A DNA stretch of 64,000 nt from Antedon mediterranea (lineage: Eukaryota; Echinodermata; Crinoidea; Comatulida; Antedonidae): the NCBI RefSeq assembly GCF_964355755.1, contig NC_092677.1:26754101-26818100 (forward strand), given 5' to 3'. The translations under genes and the position numbers were made by a program. The notes below the pieces were generated by a model that worked only from the letters and a program-made list of their open reading frames with translations, was not told the DNA's origin and made no database searches. Of this stretch, positions 12,701 through 63,215 are shown one piece after another; the stretch's first letter is position 1, and each line of letters opens with the position of its first letter.

Positions 12701-13427
12701 ATACAATGTCTATCATAAACATACATATAACAGCAGTAATGTTGAAGTAGAATTTAACTTTCGGCAAATCAAAATGACAGGATACGGCACAATGCAAACG
12801 TCAATTCACGCATGCTCCCATCGTCCAAATCCCTGTATTTTTCAGGAGCAATCTTGATGTTTTGAGACGACGACGAATGTGTATATAGTTTAGCGCTCAA
12901 ATAAGATATACGCATGTGCAGTCTACAAGTATGTGGGCCTTAGTTCAACTTCAAAGTTTGTATTAATAAATATCATTAAATATAAAAAACTATAGCAGCA
13001 GTAGAGTGCGAATTAGTAAGGAGAGTAATTGCCAAACTAATTCCGTTGCGGTTTTGTTATAGACATGCCAATCCACAGTAATTAATAAGAAAATTATAAA
13101 TACCAGGAGGTAGCATCAAATCACATGAATGTAAGAAAACCATTGGCTTAATAGTGTCACGTGATTATAGAATAGAATGTCAAATATTTTTTCTATGATG
13201 TTAATTTTACGAATGTGTTCCATTAACACATGTTGATCTTATTCCATTAGCAAATGTATTCGTGCCAATTGAGTAAGATAATGCATGTAGTACTCTGTTT
13301 TTACAACATTTGCTAACAACCGCCATTTCAAACCGATTTTATTTACATTTCATTCGAATGTAAAAATAATTACAATGTATAAATTAAAACATTTATATAG
13401 ACTGTAAGCATTTTATTTCGACAGCCT
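9705..13427. other. Intergenic block with small diverged repeats, no gene seen
   Basis: Contents: a direct repeat of about 75 bp at 10495-10575 and 10640-10715 (shared core attattcagatactggta); a two-copy 48-bp repeat at 10731-10825 (accattaag..gatag core); a three-copy, roughly 145-bp diverged tandem repeat at 11818-12210 (gtacaggataaagttgctgt and tatcgcttcacatgaa cores). A CG-rich patch at 10240-10310 looks like part of a dispersed element. The open frames here lack domain character or splice support. Confidence 0.6.
11008..11078. mobile_element. Partial MITE of the CArG family
   Basis: Contains cccaaatatggtagtgatgt, tgacatcatcgtgtccatat and caagtttgat, the interior of the family seen complete at 49960-50096. 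The outer terminal repeats are missing. Confidence 0.7.
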
Positions 13428-15668
13428 GCAAGAAGAATGTTCCAAATGGATCTGACGTCAGTAATACTCAAAGGACAGTCTGCAAGAAGAATGTTCCAAA
13501 TGGATCTGACGTCAGTAATACTCAAAGGACAGTCTGCAAGAAGAATGTTCCAAATGGATCTGACGTCAGTAATACTCAAAGGACAGCCTGCAAGAAGAAT
13601 GTTCCAAATGGATCTGACGTCAGTAATATTCAAAGGACAGCCTGCAAGAAGAATGTTCCAAATGGATCTGACGTCAGTAATACTCAAAGGACAGCCTGCA
13701 AGAAGAATGTTCCAAATGAATCTGACGTCAGTAATACTCAAAGGACAGCCTGCAAGAAGAATGTTCCAAATGGATCTGACGTCAGTAATACTCAAAGGAC
13801 AGTCTGCAAGAAGAATGTTCCAAATGGATCTGACGTCAGTAATACTCAAAGGACAGCCTGCAAGAAGAATGTTCCAAATGGATCTGACGTCAGTAATACT
13901 CAAAGGACAGCCTGCAAGAAAAATGTTCCAAATGGATCTGACGTCAGTAATACTCAAAGGACAGCCTGCAAGAAGAATGTTCTAAATGGATCTGACGTCA
14001 GTAATACTCAAAGGACAGTCTGCAAGAAGAATGTTCCAAATGGATCTGACGTCAGTAATACTCAAAGGACAGTCTGCAAGAAGAATGTTCCAAATGGATC
14101 TGACGTCAGTAATACTCAAAGGACAGCCTGCAAGAAGAATGTTCCAAATGGATCTGACGTCAGTAATACTCAAAGGACAGCCTGCAAGAAGAATGTTCTA
14201 AATGGATATGACGTCAGTAATACTCAAAGGACAGCCTGCAAGAAGAATGTTCAAAATGGACCTGACGTCAGTAATACTCAAAGGACAGTCTGCAAGAAGA
14301 ATGTTCCAAATGGATCTGACGTCAGTAATACTCAAAGGACAGTCTGCAAGAAGAATGTTCCAAATGGATCTGACGTCAGTAATACTCAAAGGACAGCCTG
14401 CAAGAAGAATGTTTCAAATGGATCTGACGTCAGTAATACTCAAAGGACAGCCTGCAAGAAGAATGTTCCAAATGGATCTGACGTCAGTAATACTCAAAGG
14501 ACAGTCTGCAAGAAAAATGTTCCAAATGGATCTGACGTCAGTAATATTCAAAGGACAGCCTGCAAGAAGAATGTTCCAAATGGATCTGACGTCAGTAATA
14601 CTCAAAGGACAGTCTGCAAGAAGAATGTTCCAAATGGATCTGACGTCAGTAATACTCAAAGGAGAGCCTGCAAGAAGAATGTTCCAAATGGATCTGACGT
14701 CAGTAATACTCAAAGGACAGCCTGCAAGAAGAATGTTCCAAATGGATCTGACGTCAGTAATACTCAAAGGACAGTCTGCAAGAAGAATGTTCCAAATGGA
14801 TCTGACGTCAGTAATACTCAAAGGACAGTCTGCAAGAAGAATGTTCCAAATGGATCTGACGTCAGTAATACTCAAAGGACAGCCTGCAAGAAGAATGTTC
14901 CAAATGGATCTGACGTCAGTAATACTCAAAGGACAGTCTGCAAGAAGAATGTTCCAAATGGATCTGACGTCAGTAATACTCAAAGGACAGTCTGCAAGAA
15001 GAATGTTCCAAATGGATCTGACGTCAGTAATACTCAAAGGACAGCCTGCAAGAAGAATGTTCCAAATGGATCTGACGTCAGTAATACTCAAAGGACAGTC
15101 TGCAAGAAGAATGTTCCAAATGGATCTGACGTCAGTAATACTCAAAAGACAGCCTGAAAGAAGAATGTTCCAAATGGATCTGACGTCAGTAATATTCAAA
15201 GGACAGTCTGCAAGAAGAATGTTCCAAATGGATCTGACGTCAGTAATACTCAAAGGACAGTCTGCAAGAAGAATGTTCCAAATGGATCTGACGTCAGTAA
15301 TACTCAAAGGACAGCCTGCAAGAAGAATGTTCCAAATGGATCTGACGTCAGTAATACTCAAAGGACAGTCTGCAAGAAGAATGTTCCAAATGGATCTGAC
15401 GTCAGTAATACTCAAAAGACAGCCTGAAAGAAGAATGTTCCAAATGGATCTGACGTCAGTAATATTCAAAGGACAGTCTGCAAGAAGAATGTTCCAAATG
15501 GATCTGACGTCAGTAATACTCAAAGGACAGCCTGCAAGAAGAATGTTCCAAATGGATCTGACGTCAGTAATACTCAAAGGACAGCCTGCAAGAAGAATGT
15601 TCCAAATGGATCTGACGTCAGTAATATTCAAAGGACAGCCTGCAAGAAGAATGTTCCAAATGGATCTG
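13428..15668. repeat. 54-bp minisatellite, 41 copies, each with a perfect CRE octamer
   Basis: The unit is gttccaaatggatctgacgt then cagtaatactcaaaggacag then (t/c)ctgcaagaagaat. The TGACGTCA octamer is at 13453-13460 in the first full unit and 15613-15620 in the last, exactly 40 periods later. All 41 octamers are intact although other positions vary (agtctg/agcctg, actcaaa/attcaaa). Two units with the rare aaaagacagcctgaaag variant are 270 bp apart, so at least five units were copied together. The period is divisible by 3, so long frames stay open on both strands (plus: 18-residue MFQMDLTSVILKGQSARR; minus: repeats of SITDVRSIWNILL). TAA interrupts the plus frame near 13983 and 14199. I treat it as non-coding. 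Confidence 0.95.
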
Positions 15669-16181
15669 AAAAAGTGGTACGATAATAATTTATAAATACT
15701 GTATAACAAGACATATTAAAGTTTAAACATTTTGAAAATATCCATTTTTTTAAATTTATTTTCATTATAGTATAACTAATATTATACGATAAAAATGTGC
15801 TTATTTAAAGATGTATTGACCCCCAAAAACATGAAAAATTCAAATTAATTTTTAAAAAAAGACTTAAATTGGCGATTTCGTAGTTTCAATAAAGGTATTA
15901 AAAAAACCATAAAAAATAATGTTTATACTTATAAAAAGACAAAATAGGCGGTTAAATTCAACCAAAAAAAACCACTGACTATTTTTTGCTTTAGTTTTTA
16001 GGTCAATAATTTGTTTTTACCCAATTTTTGGTCAAAACACTAGACAACGTTACTTCAATTTTATCGATAAACTTGGACAAAACCGCAATATAAATATTTC
16101 ACTAATTGTTAAAACTCATCGATCGACGACTTTATAGGTTTAATCCAAAGCTTGGGATGCAAAGAAAAGAAAGGATTTGTC
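15669..16181 (+). repeat. Duplicated 5' flank of the multicopper oxidase gene (copy A)
   Basis: Nearly collinear with 18466-19205 (copy B). Shared markers include tttataaatactgtataaca, ttaaagatgta, cgataaacttggacaaaacc and aaaactcatcgatcgac, ending at aaaggatttgt. Copy A lacks about 230 bp between two ggtcaa words, consistent with a microhomology deletion that removed the right half of a small transposon. It starts directly at the end of the 54-bp array and runs into the retrotransposon at 16182. Confidence 0.85.
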
Positions 16182-38508: not shown

Positions 38509-41500
38509 ATGTCTCTTGGTGCATTTCAGCTTTCAGGTAATCCCTTAAGACTGGGACCATCAGGACACCACCCACTATTCTTTGGAGGATGCTCGACAAA
38601 CTCTAACTCGTTCATGGCAGCAGCAGCGGCTGCAGCTGCAGCTAATGCGCAGCCTAGAAAAACTAGTTTTCTTATTGATGATATCCTCCACCCAGCAAGT
38701 TCAAAAACACAGTTATCTCAAATACAAGCAGCACAAAACTTGAGTAAAGTTTGCATCGATCCATTTAAAATGGGAATGAACAATTTCTTTGGATCAAGTT
38801 TAGGACATTTCTACAGATTTAATGGTAAGTATACATTATGAACCGGTTATAATATTTACCATTTAAGCTATGATCTGAAAGTTAAGATAATGCTAAACAT
38901 AAATGGAAAAAGTTTTATTCAATTATTCTGGAAGTAGAAATAACATGCTTATGTCAAATTTAGAAAAAATACATTTCTGTCAAACAAAATATACACATAT
39001 TAGGACTTCGACAAAGTCAAAACTAGAGTGAGTGCTGAGTCAAAGATTCAATGACAGTAGTGACAACATCAAGAGATAACATTGTATATTTTGATTTGAT
39101 TTTGATTTGATCACTTTATTTCAGAATAAATATTCCATATACACTGTACAACAAAAAATAATACAAAACCGGAAATCAAACTAAAATAGGAATTTTTTCT
39201 GGCACCAAAACCAGACTCTGCAGCAATGTTTTCGTCAGTCAGAAGTTCTGACTGTATGATTTACTTTACTTTTAATCGCTGCATACAGATACACAATGTG
39301 CTATAGTATTTATTTAATGATACAATAAATCTGACTGGAAGAAAATTTATATATACAAAATATCAACTATAACAAGAATATTCTATATTGCAACCAACCG
39401 TCAGTACATAATTAGTCTAGTGTACCAATACATACAACTCTCTAAACATTGGTGCTAACAAATATAACAAAACACAAACGTTGGATAAATTAACTTACTT
39501 GGGATTTTAAGAACACAATAAAACACCGACAAAAGCTAACAATATGACAAAAAATATATAAGAGAAAATAAACAAATAAGAATTTGAAACTGAGTCTGTC
39601 AACAAACTTTTTAGAAAATTGTATTTTACACAAACTGTAGTTCCATTGCAAACAACACATAGATATACATAATTATTATCGACTTAAGGTCTGTCTACAC
39701 TATCAAACTTCATTTGACAAAATAAAATGTGATGTGCCCATAATGAACATGATGATATCATATCACTACCAAATTTTGGCACATAACCTTTGTTTTGTCA
39801 AACAAGTTTGATAATGTATACATAGGATGAAAAAACAAAATTCTACGCATACTCAGATGGTACGCAGACTTAATAAAAACTCCCGTGAAGAGAATAAAAA
39901 TTGTTGAAGGAAATGTCATTGAATTTGGGTGGCACTTTCAACTAAAGTCAAATAGTTTGGCACATTGAGTGACCCCCGCGTATCACGACAATTGGTTTTG
40001 ACACCAAATCGGTTGGTAGATTTAGCCTCCAAATACCTTTTAAATACATACCATCAGGATTTGTATGTGACAATTATCTTTGACCCATAGTAGGGCTAAT
40101 ATGCCACGCGATTTCATTGAGTTAACTAATCATTTATTTATAATAATGCCGTTCGATCGCAGGGGCACGTCGATTGGGGATACTGCGAGCAGCTTGAGGT
40201 GACGCTTTTTAGATGCTTACTTGACGGCAATCACTACAATTGCCCGTAGAAACCTCAAACGATACCTAATTAATTACTAGAATGATAATTCAAAACGTAT
40301 TTTAAACACCGGTTCTGATGAACTAACTACCGCGACAAACCCACATCAAATTGGTTCTGTCTTCTCCCATAAAATAGCTATTCAAACGTTGACATCAGCG
40401 TAATATTAGAAGTTCAAAATTATTAAACAATTTTTTAATATGGATTGGGTTTCTTAATTGAAAACGGAAGCGTGTCTGCTTAGTATAATAATTTGATTCT
40501 AATAGCAAAAAGTCTTTCAGGAATGTTAAAGTTTAAGTACAATTACCGAATTATAAAAACTACTATTAAAACAATTAGGAAGAAATAAGGATCGACAAAC
40601 TGTCAAACAGAAAGTCTAGATACAACTTATGTGTGGTGGAATACTGTGAATATAGAAACATAGCTGATGAAACAAAGTTGGTTATAATCTGTAAATTACA
40701 CACAAATTCGAATAAAAAACCTCAGGATGGAATCAGCAAATAACAAACACAAACACAAACAACGTGATACCAAGTAAAATAAAGACTTAGTTTAACAACG
40801 TGTATAACATTCTTTTTATCAAACTTATGGTACAAATTACGAAAATAGATAAAGATTTTAAACACATTGTCAATTACAGTATAGACCAGACATTTACAAT
40901 CATTAATTTAACAACTATGTGCTTGTTTAATAAGCACTAAATAAGTACTGACCACCTATAAGTTTTAATTATCAATATTTTATTTTCCTTCTAGAAGCAC
41001 TTGCACACCATCACCCCAATCCATCAGCGTCACACTTATCAGTACCCATTCCAGTACCAGTGTACCTCAGAGGTAAATCACCTAGTACCCCAGACCCATC
41101 GAAAACGAAGAAATGTCGCAGAAGTAGGACGGTCTTCACTGAACTTCAACTACTAGGACTTGAGAAACGATTTGAGAAACAGAAATACCTGTCTACACCG
41201 GATAGGTTAGAATTGGCTGAAACGTTGGGCTTGAGTCAACTACAGGTGAAAACGTGGTATCAAAATAGAAGGATGAAATGGAAGAAACAGGTGAGACTAT
41301 GAACAAATAACACAAGAAATATCTAAACTCGAAATATTATATTGACGACGTCCACTTGACAGACATGACATACTAAAAGTACTGTATGCTCAAGTTCATT
41401 TGACAAACAGTGAATACAACAACACATACAAAACTATTTAACTTATATATTGGCAACAACTCTAAATTGACACCGAGAACTTTTATACGACTAACTAAAA

Positions 41501-41897
41501 ACTAGACTAGATAAAAAAGCTAGACTAGACTAGACAAGAAGCTAGACTAGACAAGACAAGAAGCTAGACTAGACAAGACAAGAGCGCGTTAAAATATGCA
41601 CATCTTTTGTACGTACATAATTCTGTCAAAACCACACATTCTGTCAATAACTAAACGCACAATTTTACAGAACGAATCCTGCTAACCTCAGTGTAATATG
41701 TTTTTTAGGTGATGCAATGCGGAAACCACGAAGCACCAACAAAACCAAAAGGTCGACCACGAAAATCCGAAATGGACGATACCATGTCATCAATAGGGTC
41801 TCCATCAAACGAATCGGTGTCATCCCAACTTCCTCCAGATTCACCCTCTTCAGAGATGTCCGATAATTTGCTTTCAGTAACGACAATTGATACATGA
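38509..41897 (+). CDS. BARX: BarH-like homeobox protein of the BARX family
   Basis: Sequence-specific transcription factor; vertebrate BARX1/2 act in stomach, craniofacial and muscle development. Exons 38509-38824, 40995-41290, 41709-41897; phases close to 266 aa. An eh1-like repressor motif [10 protein letters not shown] lies at about 53-62, after a run of nine alanines (37-45). The homeodomain is at about 146-205: [56 protein letters not shown] with Q50 and N51. A downstream basic stretch TKPKGRPRK is the BARX-specific region that follows the homeodomain. The intron falls at the last homeodomain residues. I chose MSLGAFQL as start; an ATG 12 bases upstream (MIDR) is possible. A single invertebrate gene would be co-orthologous to BARX1 and BARX2. 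The poly(A) signal is near 42626. Confidence 0.95.
39088..39180. mobile_element. Retroelement tail in BARX intron 1
   Basis: ttttgatttgattttgattt simple repeat followed by gatcactttatttcagaata, a form common at retroelement 3' ends. The source family cannot be told from the fragment. Confidence 0.4.
39687..39830. mobile_element. MITE of the CArG family in BARX intron 1
   Basis: Termini aggtctgtctacactatcaa and gtttgataatgtatacat. The interior atgtgatgtgcccataatga is diverged and the CArG core is lost here. Confidence 0.8.
41508..41585. repeat. Short CTAGACTAGA/ACAAG repeat in BARX intron 2
   Basis: agctagactagacaagaagc and variants repeat about four times in 78 bp. Confidence 0.8.
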
Positions 41898-42756: not shown

Positions 42757-42897
42757 CTAAAGCTCTGTCTACACTATCAAATTGATGTGCCTATATATGC
42801 TGATGATGATGTCATATCACTACCATATTTGGGCATCTACTATATTTGGGCACACATTTTTTTGTCAAACTAGTTTGATAGTGTAGACAGAGCTTAA
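42757..42897. mobile_element. MITE of the CArG family
   Basis: Termini aaagctctgtctacactatc and gatagtgtagacagagctta are nearly perfect. The interior carries gtgcctatatatgctgatga and ccatatttgggcatc, so the CArG core is altered. Confidence 0.88.
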
Positions 42898-53090: not shown

Positions 53091-56000
53091 TTAACTGTCC
53101 TTAGCATGGTTGCGTTTTTGTTCTTTCCATTCTTCAATTTGTTGTCTTAGATCGTCCTTGGGTATTACCATATCCATTGTTAGAGGTTTGCGATTAAATG
53201 GGTCGTGAGGGTCACTGTGCGGAAGTAATTAAAAAACAATATTAAAATAAATGAATAACAATTAATTATTCTAAAAATCTTTACAATTTTATTGTCTGAT
53301 TGCAAAATGCACATGTTTGTTAATTTGAACTTTTAACCCTTTTAAATGATTATTATTCTGAACATTGTCAGTTAAGTTTAGTAATAATCAAACATTTATA
53401 TTGCAGTAAATCCTGAAATTTACTAATTAATTTGAATCAAAAGTTGATGAATGTTTGAAAAAAAAGTGTTAGTTTAGTTTTAAAGGCATTTATTCAAGCA
53501 AAAAGGGTAACACATACAATGATATGCGGTATCAATAGTAGGTTAAAGATTTTTTTATTTATTTAAAAACTTATTAATACAGGATAAAAAACATATCAGG
53601 TATAGATATTGCACCTGTTTTACATTTATAGTCTTGTTTTTTAAAGGAATCTTTTAAAAAACATGCATAAAAAAACATTAAAAAAACATTAAAAAACTTA
53701 CATTAATAAAACTTTAAAATCACAATACAAAGACAGACAATAATTACAATGCTTTTAAAAAGGAGTGACAAAAGGAGTGACAAAAGGAGTGAAAAAAGGA
53801 GTGAAAAAAAGGAGTGAAAAAAGGAGTGAAAAAGGAGTGAAAAAAGGAGTGAAAAATTTAAGGGAACATAAAATGTAATTGTTTAAAATATGTTTATAAA
53901 TATAGTAGACTTAATAAAATATTCTGAAAAGGAAAAAATCCTAAAAGATAAATGAACATAAATGATTTTGATGAACCAACCTCATAACATGTCTCTGAAT
54001 GGTACTTCTTTCAACTATTTGATTTGAAGTTGGAAGCAGGACTGGGTCAGTCATCAGAATGGTCAACAAGGGGTCAAGGAACTCATCTGGTGCATCTGCA
54101 AACAGTTCTTCCTCTGTCTCTTTCAACAATGACATTTTCTGTATTTAAACAATTTAATAATTTGTATTAAGATCAAATGTTAAGGCCAAAAAACACAGAC
54201 GAGCAGTAAAGGTAATGAAAATATATAAAATGTTATTCCTTATGACTATTCACAAACAACCCGGAGCACACAGGTGGTTACCGCTAAGGATAGATACAGC
54301 TTCTAGCAGGGACAAGATATGGTTTCCGCTTACTGTTAACGCTTGTCTGTGTAAATTAGCCTTAAGAGTCTATTAATTATGGTAAGGCACACTGTGCTAT
54401 TCATGTTTTATTGATACAGTATTTGCCGGTAAATTGCTTAGATTGCAGTTTGATACTGTTAAATGCATTATATAGCACTGCATAATTCATCAAAGGCATT
54501 TTTGCCATTTCATACTTTTCCATTATGGATACTGTCATTTATATACAGAGCAGTACACAAAAATAGAAAGGCAATTACTAAGGAAATGACAATGCTGTGG
54601 GTATCAGTGGCTGGATCGAAATGGAGATACAAATAAAAAAACATTGAAAAATGACAATGCTCCTGTGGGTATCAGTGGCTGGATCACAATGGGGATACAA
54701 ATAAAAAAACATTGAAAAATGACAATGCTCCTGTTGGTATCAGTTGCTGGATCACAATGGAGATACAAATAAAAAAACATTGAAAAATGACAATGCTATG
54801 GGCATTACTAGTGGTTGGATCACAATGGGGAAAGACACCATTTTTTGTTTTAAATAATTGATAAACCCCACAAACCTTCAAGAACGTCAAAGCCGTAGCA
54901 AAAGGTTAAAAACAGACGAGGCAAAGATGCTTTAAATATAATTATTATTATAAAATATGACAATCTCTGCTGGGGAATTGGGGTGGGTAGTGAAATTTGA
55001 AAATGTTTAGGGCTACAGCCTGAACATGTAGCTAACCCAAGAAAACCCAATAAAAGTAATTGAATCATAAACTCACTTGGTAATGTGTCTTATGTTAAAA
55101 AAATTTGTGTTGTGTTAATATATTATTATAATAATATTATTAATATACCTACTAAAACACCAATTTCTGGTTTAAAATAATTAATTTATAAATGCTGCAA
55201 ACCTCCAAAACCACAGAGGAAACAGTATCAAAGTAGTTTGGCAAAAATACGGTAGTGATATTCTCAAATATGGTAGTGATATATACTAAAATATGGTAGT
55301 GATATACCCAAATATAGTAGTGATATGACATCATCATGTCCATATATGGGCATAGTGTAGACAAGGCTTAAGACATCATGTGAACACACCTTAAATTTAG
55401 TTGCCACAACTTTAATTCCCTGGATTGTTGAAGACTCAGCACAAACTTTGATCAAGACTTTTTCTAACTTGATAAACAGACCCGGCGTGTATGACCTTTC
55501 GTCGCCAGCCACTGCCTCACAAAACGCATCCTGATCTCCAAGGTTTACATATATTTTAGAAATGTCTTTCACAAGCTGCTTAGGTTTGAAGTCGTATGCA
55601 TCAAAATCCCTCACTTTCAAAAGACCCATTTTGTTTCCAATCAGTTTGACTAGAAAATCGTTGAACATTGCTGCAACTCTGTCAACCATGGAAGAGTGTG
55701 TGAACACATCTTTAATTTCTGTAAATAAACAATTCAGTTGTTTACTAATCAATGAAGAATGTGTAAACACACCTTTCTTTACCTTCTATAAATAAACATG
55801 TAGTTGTTTGATAAGCTCTGTCTACACAATAATGTGATGTGACATCATCCATATATGGGCACAACACATAAAGTTTGATAGTGTAGACAGAGCTTTAGGC
55901 TGGTGCATAGTGTACTTATCCACAGAGACCTGTAATTTATTGATAAAAACTGTATGGACATTATGGACATTATGGCAGGAGGAAGTAATTTGATTATACA

Positions 56001-59000
56001 TTTCAACTCTTATTTTTACATCAATTATCTCTTTTTTTTCTGTGTAGACAGAGCTTATTAAGGCACAGAAAGATTAATTTAATGTTAAAATGAGAAAATA
56101 AAAGAAATGACAAAAGATAATGACAAAGACAAACCTGATGATACATAGCTGAGAACTTTAATGGATTCGTTAGCCATTATGTTGAAGAACTTAGCAATCT
56201 TTCCTTGCGTTCTAAGGTTAGCATCATGTTGTAGCCGGTCCACTGTAGACATGGCTTCCCATTCTGGACTTTCTTTAGTCAACTCTAACTCTCTGATCTT
56301 CTTCAAGTACTGCATGATAACAGGGTAAAAATTAAGTTAACAATTAACAATAAATTAACAATTTAACATTTTTCAAAAAAATCAGTGAAATTTTCATCAT
56401 CATCTTCCTTTATTGTGCATAAATTCATTGTATAGTCACACATGGAAATGAAAGTGCTTAAAATTACAAGTGATCAAAAAAAGTCCTAGATCTAGCAGAA
56501 TTATTTTAATTATTTATCTCAGTATAGATAAAAAAACATTCAAACAGCAGCACTTTTTAAAAGTCTGAAAACATTTGTTAACCAATTTATACAAGTTTAA
56601 AAGAAAGTTAATATTCATACAAAAATAAATCAAGCCCATAAGGATAAATTTATCCCTAGAATTTTCATAAAGGATTGGTGCCTGGATACAATTGGTGACA
56701 CTAACAAAAGGGATTCCTCTATATAATATAATATTTGGGATAATAAAAAGTATTATATTATATTGTGGGGGGAGAGGGGGGGGGGAGCCCACTCTTCTGG
56801 TGGAATTATAGAAGATAAGCGAGTACTTACATCCATAGCTTCATCAAGAGTAAAGATTGCATCATTAATTAGCAGGTTAATGAACTGCACAAACAATGGT
56901 GGCACTGCATCTTCTATAATCAGCATTGACTCAGCAGACAGGTCCTGTAAGGCAACAATGTTGAATTAATTCAATTTAACATTCAGCATTGACTCAGCAG
57001 ACAGGTCCTGTAAGGTAACAATGTTGAATTAATTCAATTTAACATTCAGCATTGACTCAGCAGACAGGTCCTGTAAGTTAACAATGTTGAATTAATTCAA
57101 TTTAACATTCAGCATTGACTCAGCAGACAGGTCCTGTAAGTTAACAATGTTGAATTAATTCAATTTAACATTCAGCATTGACTCAGCAGACAGGTCCTGT
57201 AAGTTAACAATGGTGAATTAATTCAATTTAACATTCAGCATTGACTCAGCAGACAGGTCCTGTAAGGTAACAATGTTGAATTAATTCAATTTAACATTCA
57301 GCATTGACTCAGCAGACAGGTCCTGTAAGTTAACAATGTTGAATTAATTCAATTTAACATTCAGCATTGACTCAGCAGACAGGTCCTGTAAGGTAAAAAT
57401 GTTGAATTAATTCAATTTAAAATTCAGCATTGACTCAGCAGACAGGTCCTGTAAGTTAACAATGTTGAATTAATTCAATTTAACATTCAGCATTGACTCA
57501 GCAGACAGGTCCTGTAAGTTAACAATGTTGAATTAATTCAATTTAACATTCAGCATCGACTCAGCAGACAGGTCCTGTAAGGTAACAATGTTGAATTAAT
57601 TCAATTTAACATTCAGCATTGACTCAGCAGACAGGTCCTGTAAGGTAACAATGTTGAATTAATTCAATTTAACATTCAGCATTGACCCAGCAGACAGGTC
57701 CTGTAAGTTAACAATGTTGAATTAATTCAATTTAACATTCAGCATTGACTCAGCAGACAGGTCCTGTAAGTTAACAATGTTGAATTAATTCAATTTAACA
57801 TTCAGCATTGACTCAGCAGACAGGTCCTGTAAGTTAACAATGTTGAATTAATTCAATTTAACATTCAGCATTGACTCAGCAGACAGGTCCTGTAAGTTAA
57901 CAATGTTGAATTAATTCAATTTAACATTCAGCATTGACTCAGCAGACAGGTCCTGTAAGTTAACAATGTTGAATTAATTCAATTTAACATTCAGCATTGA
58001 CTCAGCAGACAGGTCCTGTAAGTTAACAATGTTGAATTAATTCAATTTAACATTCAGCATTGACTCAGCAGACAGGTCCTGTAAGTTAACAATGTTGAAT
58101 TAATTCAATTTAACATTCAGCATTGACTCAGCAGACAGGTCCTGTAAGTTAACAATGTTGAATTAATTCAATTTAACATTCAGCATTGACTCAGCAGACA
58201 GGTCCTGTAAGTTAACAATGTTGAATTAATTCAATTTAACATTCATGAATGACTCAGCAGACAGGTCCTGTAAGTTAACAATCTTGAATTAATTCAATTT
58301 AACATTCATGAATGACTCAGCAGACAGGTCCTGTAAGTTAACAATTAATTCAATTTAACATTCATCATTGACTCAGCAGACAGGTCCTGTAAGTTAACAA
58401 TTAATTCAATTTAACATTCACGATTGACCCAGCAGACAGGTCCTGTAAGTTAACAATTAATTCAATTTAACATTCATGATTGACCCAGCAGACAGGTCCT
58501 GTAAGTTAACAATGTTGAATTAATTCAATTTAACATTCATGAATGTTTCATTGAACATTATTGAAGTTAAGTACAGTTATGAGGAAAATGGCAAATTCAA
58601 CACTGCGGTCACGTTACAAGAGTTTTTAGAACAATATAGATTATCTGAAAGTAGGAAGCCTTTTTCCCTTTTCCCCTGACTGAGTATCAAAAGGAATTGT
58701 TTTAAGGTCCAGATAACAAGATTTCCACTGATAATCGATAAAAGTTTACCTGTTTCTGAACACCCTAGTTTTACCTCTGTAGTTTAAAATTTGACCTGGC
58801 CATCACAGAGTCAGGGATAATAATATGCCATAACTACATGGGTATGAGCATAGTCTAAGTATAATATGGTAGTGATGTGCCCAAATATGGTAGTGATGTG
58901 CCAAAATATGGTAGTGATATGACATCATCATGTCCATATATGGCCACATAACATAAAGCTTGATAGTGTAGACAGAGCTTAAGAATAATTAAACAGCTCT

Positions 59001-62000
59001 CACCTTAATCCAGTTGCGGTGTTCTTCCAGAGACCAGAGATAATGTAAGATGCCGTACATCGGCATTCTGTAGTTAAACTTCTGTTCAAATGCATGTTCA
59101 TCGCCCGAGAATTCAATATCATTAAAGATCGTCAGGAGAGATCGTGATAGTAACATTCGTAAAGGATGTTCTATGAAAATACGCTGCCTGTGAAATCTAG
59201 AGTAAATATAACAATAACAATTATTATAAGTTAAATTCAGACTTAAATTTGTATTTGTGAGTCAATCAATACTTTGTTCTTCTTTAATAAACAGAAGAAA
59301 ATATAGTGAAATAAATGAAACCATGAAATGATATATATATATATTTTTGTTTGCTTTTGTCTGTTTTGTTTTGGCGTCCCTAATACAAGCATTTGCTTTC
59401 TTGGTGACGCCACCATTATTTGGAAATAAATGTTATTTTGATTGATTGATGAGAGCTTAATAGTCTAGCAAATTATCCAATAAATTTAATACTCACGTAG
59501 ATACCATAGTTGATCGCCCTCTACTGTTAAAGTTTGGCATAAATCCATCTAATATATCCGCAAGCTTTGCTCGTAAATGATAATTGTTTATCCTCTTTTT
59601 ATTTCCCATAAACACGATTATAAAACTTAGCAGGTGATCAAGGTGTTCTCCAAACTCTTCAAATTCTTCTTCTTTAAATCTTCGTACAAACAGCAGAAAA
59701 TCAACGATATTTTCAACGACAAATGCTGGGATACATGCCAACGTTGACGGTATTTCTTCCGATATAGGCAAAGATGGTTTAAATACACTTGTAAGATCAT
59801 CAGTGAGAGCACACTGTACAAGTAACTGTGCGGTGGCCGTGTAAAAGTTCATACATAGGTTGGTCAGTCTGGTTTCAGACAGAGCTGCTTTCATTGATAA
59901 GAATAAACTTGTTGCTAAAAAAGAGAATTTATTTATTTATTATTTGTTCTTTATACTGGGTAGCCTCTTAAGTCTAAGACTGTTCTCCCAGAGAGCCCAG
60001 TGTATAGTACTATGATGAGTTTGTGACAGTGGCTGTGTGTGAACTAGTAAACTGAGGTAACCCCCTATTTGTTTCGAAAGATGCACTGGGTTCTTTGAAG
60101 TGCACATGAACTAGATGTGTACACTGGACCTACGGTTTATAGTGCTTGTCTGAGAAGACTCGTTCTACCACCAGAACCATGGAGCAAGTGATCCTCAAAC
60201 CCTTGCCGATGTTATGGCTACGTATTGCGGTTCCACTCTCTTAACCGCTCGGCCACTCACTTGCTTTGTATTTCTTTGACACATAATCTGGCAATCAGTT
60301 TGAAGTCATGTTTACTACATGTCATCATAACTACCTTTCTCCATATTGTCCTTTAAGTCTTCTAACAGACCCTGTCTCGTCGCAGGCCGTAGCCGTTGGT
60401 GCTCTTGGTAGGCTTGTTGGTATTGATGCAACTCTCTGTACACCTTCATGAAGCGATTGTGTAAGACATTAAACCCTAGCTGCAAGCAGCGATGGGTTAA
60501 GAAGAAGCAATCTGTTGAAAAGTTAAAGGGTTCTTGTCGAGTTGCTATTGGTTCCTCGTCATCATCAAGTTTTCTAAGGAAATCTGACTTTGGCAAGTCT
60601 AAGAAAAAAATTGAAATACAATCAATTAATCAAAAAACTTTCTTTTCAACTACAAAAGCATTTTTTTAACAATAATTAAAAATTGTATACAGTAATTGAT
60701 TGTACCAATTGAATACAAAATCACAATTTTTATTACAAATTTTGAGAAAGAATTTGCAATAAATGGAAAACATGCTGAGAATTTTATTTTTTCAACATGC
60801 TGTATTTGAATAAGCTTAGATTGTGTAAATGGCTGAAAATTCATGTGTATTTTTAGAGAATAGCCTATTTCAACTATTTTCAATAAGGTTTATCGCAAAT
60901 ATAGTGCGCAAAGCAGGATGGGAAGGGTTTGGGAGCATTTGATTTGTTGCTTGTACGTATGCGTTGTGACGTTTGCTCCCAGCATGTATTGTGCAATCAT
61001 GTTCCTCCTGATATCAAGCTATTTGCGATAAACCTTATTAAATGTATCAGAGTCAACATACAAGTCTATATCCCTATACATATATCTAATAGAAAGCAAA
61101 AGATAGAACATTAAATTAAGTTAAGCAATTACTTTACTATTATTTTAAAATCCTGGTTCTGCCTGCAGCCACTGCTGAACAACAATTCACATAACAAGGT
61201 GGCAGCCATTATAATGCTTGGCATCAAATCAGAATATTTGTACAAAAATATTATAAAATTTACCTTTTAAATGAACGCCTTTATTCCTCATGTCGTCACT
61301 GGTTTGTACATCTTCTAAACAATACCTGAAATCAACAGCCAACATCCGAGCAGAGTTTGGTTTGGCAAACTTGTTACACATGTGAAGCAACACAGCACAA
61401 AGATTGACAAAGAATCCATCAGATGCATTCTGGTTACCCAGTGAAAACATTTTGCCTCGACCTACCATCCACAAATAATAATTAAAAATGAATAATGAAG
61501 CATGAGTTTGCCTCAATATACCATCCACAAATAATAATAATTACATATGAATAATGAATTTTGCTTTGTAAAGGGCAATTTACACAGACGAGCGGAAAAA
61601 CGTGTAGCGTGTCCCACGCAAAATCTGTATCTAACTGCTTGTCTATTCCACGTTGTGTGTAAATGGTCATAAGGAATAACATAGATCCTATATTTTTCGC
61701 TCTGTTCTCCGCTCTTTGAACTTCTAAATGACAGCTTTTCAGACCCATACAACCTTGCCGTAAAAACCTACAATAACAATGACATTTCAATTATCTTACC
61801 AGCATTAGCTTTCATACAGTTTCCAAGCCATTCCAGTAATCTATGTTTGTTTTCTGGTGAGGATTTACAAATGTTGATAAATATCTCATATACTTTGGTG
61901 TTCAGTAAGGATGTAAGCTGTCAAAAGAAAAAACAAGCTATTGTATTATAAAAAACAATTTGAAAAGAAAAATATATTTTATTATACAATTATTATTTCT

Positions 62001-63215
62001 CAATTCCTTCTGAAACACACAAGACTGTTGTTATTATTGTCCTTTTTGGCTAACATACAACAATATTTAATTGGAGTGGAGATCTAGCTTGGTGGATAAC
62101 AGGTTTGCCTTCCAATCTGTCGTTCAATCCTGACTGAGTGCCAGGGTTGTAACTCGCAACTCTTTCAACTCCACTTCCTAAGCCTCAAATGAGACTTAGT
62201 TTATAAGCATGATAAATTATTAAATAGTTTATCCTATAATTGGCGAGTTACTTGCTGTTGGATGAGTATGAAATAAAAAAAAGATTATGCATTTTAAGAT
62301 TACATCATATAAACAGACACCAATGATACCAGATTCTCACGTCTGACTTAAGTCTGGTGTTTGGAATATATTTCTTATGGTAGAAAGGAATTTTAGTTTT
62401 TAACAAAATAAAACCAAGGAGATCCTCACCTGCCATATTTGGCTCTGGGTAGCAGAATGCTCAATTTGCGTGTTCCTTGATGGCTGATCAAAGAACTGAA
62501 AAGTACCGCCGTCGTTGTTTTTATTGTAGAGACATGTTAAACAAAGAATTTTACCGACAACAGAGTCTTCGTACGCCTTCCCAATTTTTTGATCCGCAGG
62601 AGTCATGTGATGTAACAAAACCTGTAACAGTTAAATGAAAGCGCTCAGAAAATATATATTCAGAGAGAGAGAGAGCACTCACTATTTTATAACTCAACCC
62701 ATCTTAACAGAATACAGAATTTTCTTTTTTTTATTTTTGAAGTTATTAATGAACTAATTTTCTTGAAATTCGATATGCATGTTCTGTAAGTATATACTCT
62801 TTTTATTCTTGTTTCTTGTGGATTTTGTTTACATCTTATGAATGTCTAATTAATATGGCAATCTGACGCTTTTCCCTATGTGGAATTTTATTGAATTAAA
62901 TTCATTATAGGAAAACCAGACATTCTTGTGCAGAGTGGAAGAGTTGACTGTATTATTCCAAATATGAAGGTAGGACTTATTTATGCAAGTTGAAAAGAAA
63001 ACTATGATACAATACCTCTGCCAGACAAGAAGAATTGCTAAATAACCAAATAATGGCACAATATCCATAATTGACAGACTTTTCTAGGCCAGGTTGCTTG
63101 CTCATCTCCTGATAAAGGGTTGTGAGAACAGGGCCAAATGCGTCTGTGCAAGACATCTCATCTGCATTCACTTGTTCAGCTATGAGTTTGAAAAACTGAG
63201 CACTTGTATCAAAAT
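53091..63215 (-). CDS. UBE4A: Ubiquitin conjugation factor E4 A (U-box E3/E4), N-terminus off-window
   Basis: Ufd2-type E4 that extends ubiquitin chains. Exons in transcript order: 63215-63016, 62621-62430, 61917-61800, 61461-61264, 60598-60335, 59914-59497, 59196-59004, 56944-56831, 56309-56135, 55718-55390, 54138-53981, 53214-53091. Phases join without a stop over 826 codons (human protein about 1066, so about 240 residues lie to the right). Ufd2 core segments: [89 protein letters not shown] and [17 protein letters not shown]. These favour UBE4A over UBE4B. The C-terminal U-box runs from [20 protein letters not shown] through VERSTIQRH to [13 protein letters not shown]. Intron 7 contains a large array of copied splice acceptors (56945-58545), and introns hold SINEs and MITEs. 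Confidence 0.95.
53757..53855. repeat. AAAAGGAGTGA microsatellite in the last UBE4A intron
   Basis: About eight copies of an 11-13 bp unit aaaaggagtga(c/a). Confidence 0.9.
54585..54835. repeat. 66-bp family minisatellite, inverted, about 3.5 copies
   Basis: Units gacaatgctcctgtgggtat, cagtggctggatcacaatgg, agatacaaataaaaaaacat are the reverse complement of the unit in HINFP intron 6 (2262-2495). Lies in UBE4A intron 10. Confidence 0.88.
55228..55372. mobile_element. CArG-family MITE with internal repeat growth
   Basis: The word aaatatggtagtgatat occurs four times in a row with spacing near 24 bp, then tgacatcatcatgtccatat, ATGGGC and a shortened right terminus gtgtagacaaggctta. Confidence 0.8.
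55680..55800. repeat. Partial duplication of a UBE4A exon/intron junction
   Basis: gaagagtgtgtgaacacatc through ctgtaaataaacaattcagt (5' end of the 55718-55390 exon plus upstream intron) is repeated just upstream as gaagaatgtgtaaacacacc through ctataaataaacatgtagtt. The unit is about 57 bp. Confidence 0.75.
55812..55896. mobile_element. Short CArG-family MITE
   Basis: Termini ataagctctgtctacac and agtgtagacagagcttta. The interior is deleted to gatgtgacatcatccatata and tgggcac. Confidence 0.85.
56937..58545. repeat. 63-bp minisatellite made of the UBE4A exon-8 splice acceptor, about 26 copies
   Basis: On the plus strand the unit is cagcattgactcagcagaca, ggtcctgtaagttaacaatg, ttgaattaattcaatttaac plus att. 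Reading the transcript (minus) strand, each unit is intron end, AACTTACAG, then GACCTGTCTGCTGAGTCAAT, which is the first part of exon 56944-56831. The first junction, at 56945, is the real one. Copies follow every 63 bp up to about 58324, then three shortened units (about 54-60 bp) to 58545. Most copies keep the AG and the exon bases exactly. Confidence 0.95.
58855..58984. mobile_element. CArG-family MITE in UBE4A intron 7
   Basis: Three copies of aatatggtagtgatgtg-type words, then gacatcatcatgtccatata and TGGCCAC, ending gatagtgtagacagagctta. Confidence 0.88.
60044..60265 (-). mobile_element. tRNA-derived SINE in UBE4A intron 5
   Basis: The minus strand begins gtgagtggccgagcggttaa, a Leu/Ser-tRNA-like A box, and then has gggtttgaggatca in the B-box position. 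The body includes ggtccagtgtacacatct and gtgcacttcaaagaaccca. A body fragment is also at 3085-3150. Confidence 0.75.
60881..61039. mobile_element. MITE with TIR AATAAGGTTTATCGCAAAT
   Basis: Left caataaggtttatcgcaaat and right atttgcgataaaccttatt are a perfect inverse of about 19 bp. The interior gggaagggtttgggagc / gctcccagc forms a second stem. Lies in UBE4A intron 4. Confidence 0.88.
62073..62224 (+). mobile_element. tRNA-derived SINE, copy 1
   Basis: tggagtggagatctagcttg gives an A-box-like tagcttggtgg, and gttcaatcctgactg a B-box-like core. The 3' body aactctttcaactccact then cctcaaatgagacttagttt matches 63426-63594. Lies in UBE4A intron 2. Confidence 0.8.

Follow-up and report, generated by a model that had tools for sequence, protein, structure and literature searches.

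Tandem repeats of a splice-site region occur in intron 7 of the factor VII gene, where they lie on the donor side. Tandem repeats that extend across exon-intron boundaries were named mirages when they were described in the amphioxus gene Adh3, and they are also carried by the amphioxus globin genes BflGb6 and BflGb9, two haplotypes of BflGb6 carrying 6 and 3 units, respectively (PMC3087553). According to the passages of that report that deal with splicing, the Adh3 data together with RT-PCR of the globin transcripts suggest that mirages leave regular splicing alone, and the authors allow that the copies could serve as cryptic sites (PMC3087553). Later work names PGBD5 and troponin C as further mirages and describes those of Adh and troponin C as giving no aberrant mRNAs (PMC3902484). 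The nearest case that we found in which the repeated sites are used is IFI6 (G1P3, 6-16), where a minisatellite supplies multiple splice donors (Turri 1995, as cited in PMC4526556); in the account given by the citing paper, two downstream repeat units act as donors, which leads to three mRNA species (PMC4526556).

We analysed a window of 64,000 nt from the crinoid Antedon mediterranea (contig NC_092677.1), the minus strand of which carries a tandem array within UBE4A. We consider it likely that this array is a mirage minisatellite, that its last acceptor leads to functional mRNA, probably via exon definition, and that it has no dedicated function. Tandem Repeats Finder returned a period of 63, 26.0 copies, and 97% matches at 56920-58539. 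Acceptors reading ACAG|GACCTGTCTGCTG occur 26 times on the minus strand, corresponding to 25 decoys plus the true exon start, and exact copies of TTACAGGACCTGTCTGCTG were present 26 times on that strand, again at the 25 decoys and the true site. These results bear out the original prediction for this DNA, which was that of a minisatellite of about 25 decoy 3' splice sites with a repeat unit made of the intron end with its AG and the first 25 or so bases of the exon: each full unit of 63 nt combines the last 38 nt of the intron with the first 25 nt of the exon, and the boundary is kept in 26 of 26 copies. The first exon-like base of the decoys runs from 58498 to 57007, and that of the true acceptor is at 56944 (Table 1).

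Table 1. Features of the UBE4A region in window coordinates, with exons and introns numbered as in this report.
Feature	Position	Strand	Details
Tandem array	56920..58539	minus	63-nt unit, 26 copies including the true boundary
Decoy acceptors	57007..58498	minus	25 sites
True exon (exon 12)	56831..56944	minus	114 nt, phase 0/0, donor GTAAGT
Host intron (intron 11)	56945..59003	minus	2059 nt, 464 nt ahead of the array
Upstream exon	59004..59196	minus	end ATTAAG|GTGAGA, phase 0; last base 59004
UBE4A exons 5-16	53091..63215	minus	Ufd2P core and U-box

When the units were numbered from the upstream donor, units 1 to 3 were found to be 56 nt long and units 4 to 25 to be 63 nt long, with unit 26 being the true exon. 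Units 6 to 13 are all identical, each of the first five units is different, and the consensus is matched by 12 of the 25 decoy units. Across the array 11 of the 63 columns vary, in addition to the 7-nt length class; for the intron part, this count covers the 23 copies in which all 38 nt of intron are present and leaves out the remaining three. The exon-side edge of the array has one private base, at -9, and GCC at -9 to -7 is unique to the true site, with the decoys carrying either AAC or ACC there. Identical inner units and differing first units are the usual pattern of a minisatellite with a homogenised interior and an older edge. When 301 array bases were searched against the genome itself (a DNA search in which very common words were skipped), 8 matches were obtained, all of them inside the array. 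A U1-type donor had also been predicted on the antisense strand of every repeat; this holds for 20 of the 26 units, which have CCTGTAAGT, and fails for the remaining 6, which have CCTGTAAGG.

The UBE4A array and the amphioxus mirages, as the latter are described in the sections of the published account cited here, are alike in having repeats that span a boundary and many AG- or GT-bearing copies within an otherwise normal gene, and in BflGb6, as in UBE4A, it is the 3' end of the intron and the start of the exon that are duplicated (PMC3087553). Three features of mirages were found at UBE4A: the unit crosses the intron/exon boundary; the authentic boundary closes the array and, judging from the DNA, gives a coding mRNA; and the interior is homogenised while the edge of the cluster is divergent, units 1 to 5 being divergent and partly shorter. 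The UBE4A array is larger, with 26 copies compared to the 6 and 3 units of the BflGb6 haplotypes. Its structure would make it a large example of this known kind. IFI6, as summarised in the citing paper, is like UBE4A in that the minisatellite units bear a splice signal at the edge of an exon, but the repeated sites are donors in IFI6 and acceptors in UBE4A (PMC4526556). Repeat units that could act as donor sites, as in IFI6, were not found in the UBE4A array: of the four GT dinucleotides in its consensus sense unit, none has a GTRAG context.

Joining exons 5 to 16 of the host gene at the DNA level through the last acceptor produced a single open frame with its sole stop at the end. Exons 11 to 16, when translated, matched Pfam Ufd2P_core with an E value of 3e-76 and U-box with an E value of 7.6e-26, and the U-box scored 96 bits against the solved UBE4A U-box (1wgm) versus 77 bits against that of UBE4B (2kre). 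The earlier naming of the gene as UBE4A is thus backed both by its domains and by the closer match of its U-box to UBE4A than to UBE4B. Genome-wide there were 14 Ufd2P_core matches, 6 of which are on C8 and belong to the host gene, and 8 of which are at a single C3 locus that is taken to be UBE4B. Four more UBE4A exons apparently lie upstream of the window, as judged by eye from open frames and by reference to the human protein, so the intron that holds the array, previously called intron 7, is intron 11 by our count. The other UBE4A introns in the window are 300 to 1251 nt long. Past the 3' end of UBE4A, the plus strand holds a homeobox exon at 40952-41302 and then an open frame at 41709-41897, both of which look similar to BARX.

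We investigated what each decoy would encode and how strong it is as an acceptor. With the phase taken from the upstream donor, ATTAAG|GTGAGA, all 25 decoys lead to DLSA..., followed by NVKLN or NFKLN and then by a stop after 13 codons, so that the premature in-frame stop foreseen 13 codons past any decoy was found for 25 of 25, and the UBE4A frame is preserved by the last acceptor only. Acceptors were scored with a matrix made from the small sample of 11 other acceptors of UBE4A in the window. The true site scored 10.0 and the decoys from 7.6 to 13.3, compared to -2.6 to 8.8 for the genuine UBE4A acceptors when each was left out in turn and to a mean of -4.1 for 455 other AGs, only 1 of which reached the level of the true site. 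Because the scores of the decoys bracket that of the true site, local sequence does not single out the true acceptor. The array, with 26 near-identical acceptors only one of which is right, offers a natural test of how a site is chosen without local sequence information.

On the evidence of the sequence, the mirage is a tandem duplication reaching from 38 nt before to 25 nt after the UBE4A acceptor, which was then expanded and homogenised to 26 copies. Functional mRNA would come from the last acceptor, as is suggested indirectly by the conserved frame that is kept there only. This acceptor probably prevails through exon definition: no other is followed by the complete exon, and it is nearest to the downstream donor, delimiting an exon of 114 nt, whereas use of a decoy would lengthen that exon by 63 nt or more, to at least 177 nt. 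Any use of decoys would be expected to yield early-stop transcripts that are probably degraded. Even the first decoy implies an intron of 505 nt, and this minimum, together with the lengths of the neighbouring introns, makes exon definition plausible, which would favour the last acceptor; intron definition would instead favour the first decoy. Published analysis of competing sites indicates that closeness across the intron decides when introns are short and closeness across the exon when they are long (PMC9225289). In the sections of that paper on alternative acceptors, sites separated by 20 nt or more show an overall lean to the upstream one. With long flanking introns this lean is described as 'significantly reduced', a reversal being absent from the text; the minigene tests reported there concern donors (PMC9225289). 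Given this weak published exon-proximal pull for acceptors, the exon-definition step is less certain than it would be for donors, and given the upstream lean, the 25 upstream decoys might see more use than is assumed when the array is read as a mirage.

Such use is central to the suggestion, made in the original prediction, that the array works as a tunable brake on a ubiquitin ligase. The decoys would capture a share of splicing that rises with copy number, the stop-bearing products would be degraded, and the length of the array would set UBE4A output. Consistent with a brake, 25 of 25 decoys retain their AG, with scores similar to that of the true site, every decoy leads to an in-frame stop, the eight identical adjacent units suggest a recent change in copy number, and alternative acceptors of similar strength lean upstream in the human-type data sets described (PMC9225289). 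We determined whether this conservation exceeds what chance would leave. The 63-nt units contain 19 changes among 1386 cells, and at this divergence 0.69 AG-breaking changes are expected in the 25 decoys, with a probability of 0.50 that there are none. An in-frame stop within one unit arose in 59% of random intron parts. The intact AGs and the in-frame stops are therefore expected by chance and provide no support for a brake. An invariant run of 20 columns around the decoy acceptor, from -7 to +13, was rejected as a sign of selection, since runs of at least 20 invariant columns were given by 15% of random placements. The decoys are not detectably maintained, a result that neither supports nor excludes function. 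The mirages published so far are, in the accounts cited, reported without aberrant mRNAs (PMC3087553, PMC3902484), which also speaks against a brake, and we regard this role as distinctly unlikely and unsupported.

Boundary duplications elsewhere bear on the same question. The genome searched comprises 354.4 Mb in 18 contigs, with 99.7% of it in 11, and the scan covered up to 1.5 kb around exon matches, where further copies of the exon sequence were sought, with duplications of exon edges judged by eye. The intervals scanned were 59 UBE4A, UBE4B, and myosin matches, 82 dynein matches, and 30 kinase matches, which make 171 in all. This sample was not random, and most of the interval edges are the edges of profile matches; within it, an exon-edge duplication was seen in 5 of 171 intervals including the index array, or 4 of 170 without it. 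At UBE4A exon 3 (C8:26821440-26821610, outside the window) the first ~21 nt are repeated four times upstream in ~37-nt units, and the boundary AG is absent from 4 of 4 of these intron 2 copies, having been either lost or never included. The start of a myosin-head exon (C5:1603655-1603991) is copied upstream in 52-nt units, with an AG before each of the two copies. In dynein, the exon end and donor of a DHC_N2 match (C10:496428-496535) are duplicated once downstream, 138 nt apart, and a second DHC_N2 match (C8:27159273-27159416), which alone is below the family cut-off, likewise has its exon end and donor duplicated once downstream, 76 nt apart. A copy at C2:999137-999394 was left uncounted, as the match contains stops, and so was 1 of the 30 kinase matches, in which the nearby copy extended over the match end; kinase matches reveal splice edges poorly, as the majority of them run through a large part of the domain in a single open frame.

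Intron controls, which may include unmatched exons, had a nearby copy in 120 of 590 pseudo-exons in the UBE4A/UBE4B/myosin scan, where controls could fall within the index array, and in 45 of 410 in the dynein scan, where controls were no longer than 120 nt and were divided into short pieces for the search. Tandem copies are thus frequent away from the matched exons and less so across exon edges, which is what the removal of most boundary duplications would produce. Taken together, these results suggest that boundary duplications are not rare in this genome, and the UBE4A structure seems to be a side effect of a genome rich in minisatellites. The presence of similar duplications at unrelated genes, and of a small array of similar kind in UBE4A intron 2 without the boundary AG, argues against a brake. 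These duplications may widen the range of mirages beyond amphioxus, and they bear on the origin of new introns and isoforms. It is conceivable, if unlikely, that boundaries are captured genome-wide by duplication with the spliceosome coping by context, and that leakage into the 25 equally good acceptors at UBE4A grows with the length of the array, so that expression is tied to a fast-mutating copy number.

Two further explanations of the array fare worse than a brake. The birth of an intron may be in progress, with an array copy able to turn into a new internal exon once a donor arises; such a model was put forward for the amphioxus globins (PMC3087553), but it is very improbable here, since an in-frame stop interrupts every one of the 25 decoy units and none of the four GTs of the consensus sense unit is in the GTRAG context. 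Internal exons made from the array were rejected on the same lack of a GTRAG donor in the consensus unit, and recursive splicing was rejected because the AG of the decoys is followed by GA, not GT. Inflation of the copy number by misassembly, for which there is a precedent in one amphioxus globin mirage whose assembly in the draft genome seemed aberrant (PMC3087553), can hardly be credited for an array of units that differ mutually at 11 columns and in a 7-nt length class, that lies inside a 28.6-Mb contig, and that has similar structures at other loci, even if its exact unit count may be wrong.

Other repeats were noted during this work. At 13420-15669 a 54-nt unit is present 41.7 times; by eye, its plus-strand consensus is open as an 18-residue repeat, TACKKNVPNGSDVSNTQR, and its minus strand has CTTCTTGCAG in many units. 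This could be a coding repeat. A short tandem of 17 to 22 nt around CACTACCATATTTGGGCACAT occurs at 42820, 55245, and 58863 and at several other loci and is probably a dispersed element. Approximately 20 places within C3:19.6-25.1 Mb hold similar-scoring myosin-head fragments that cover profile positions 342-408 and 564-641, which suggests that a single myosin gene or fragment has undergone a large expansion.
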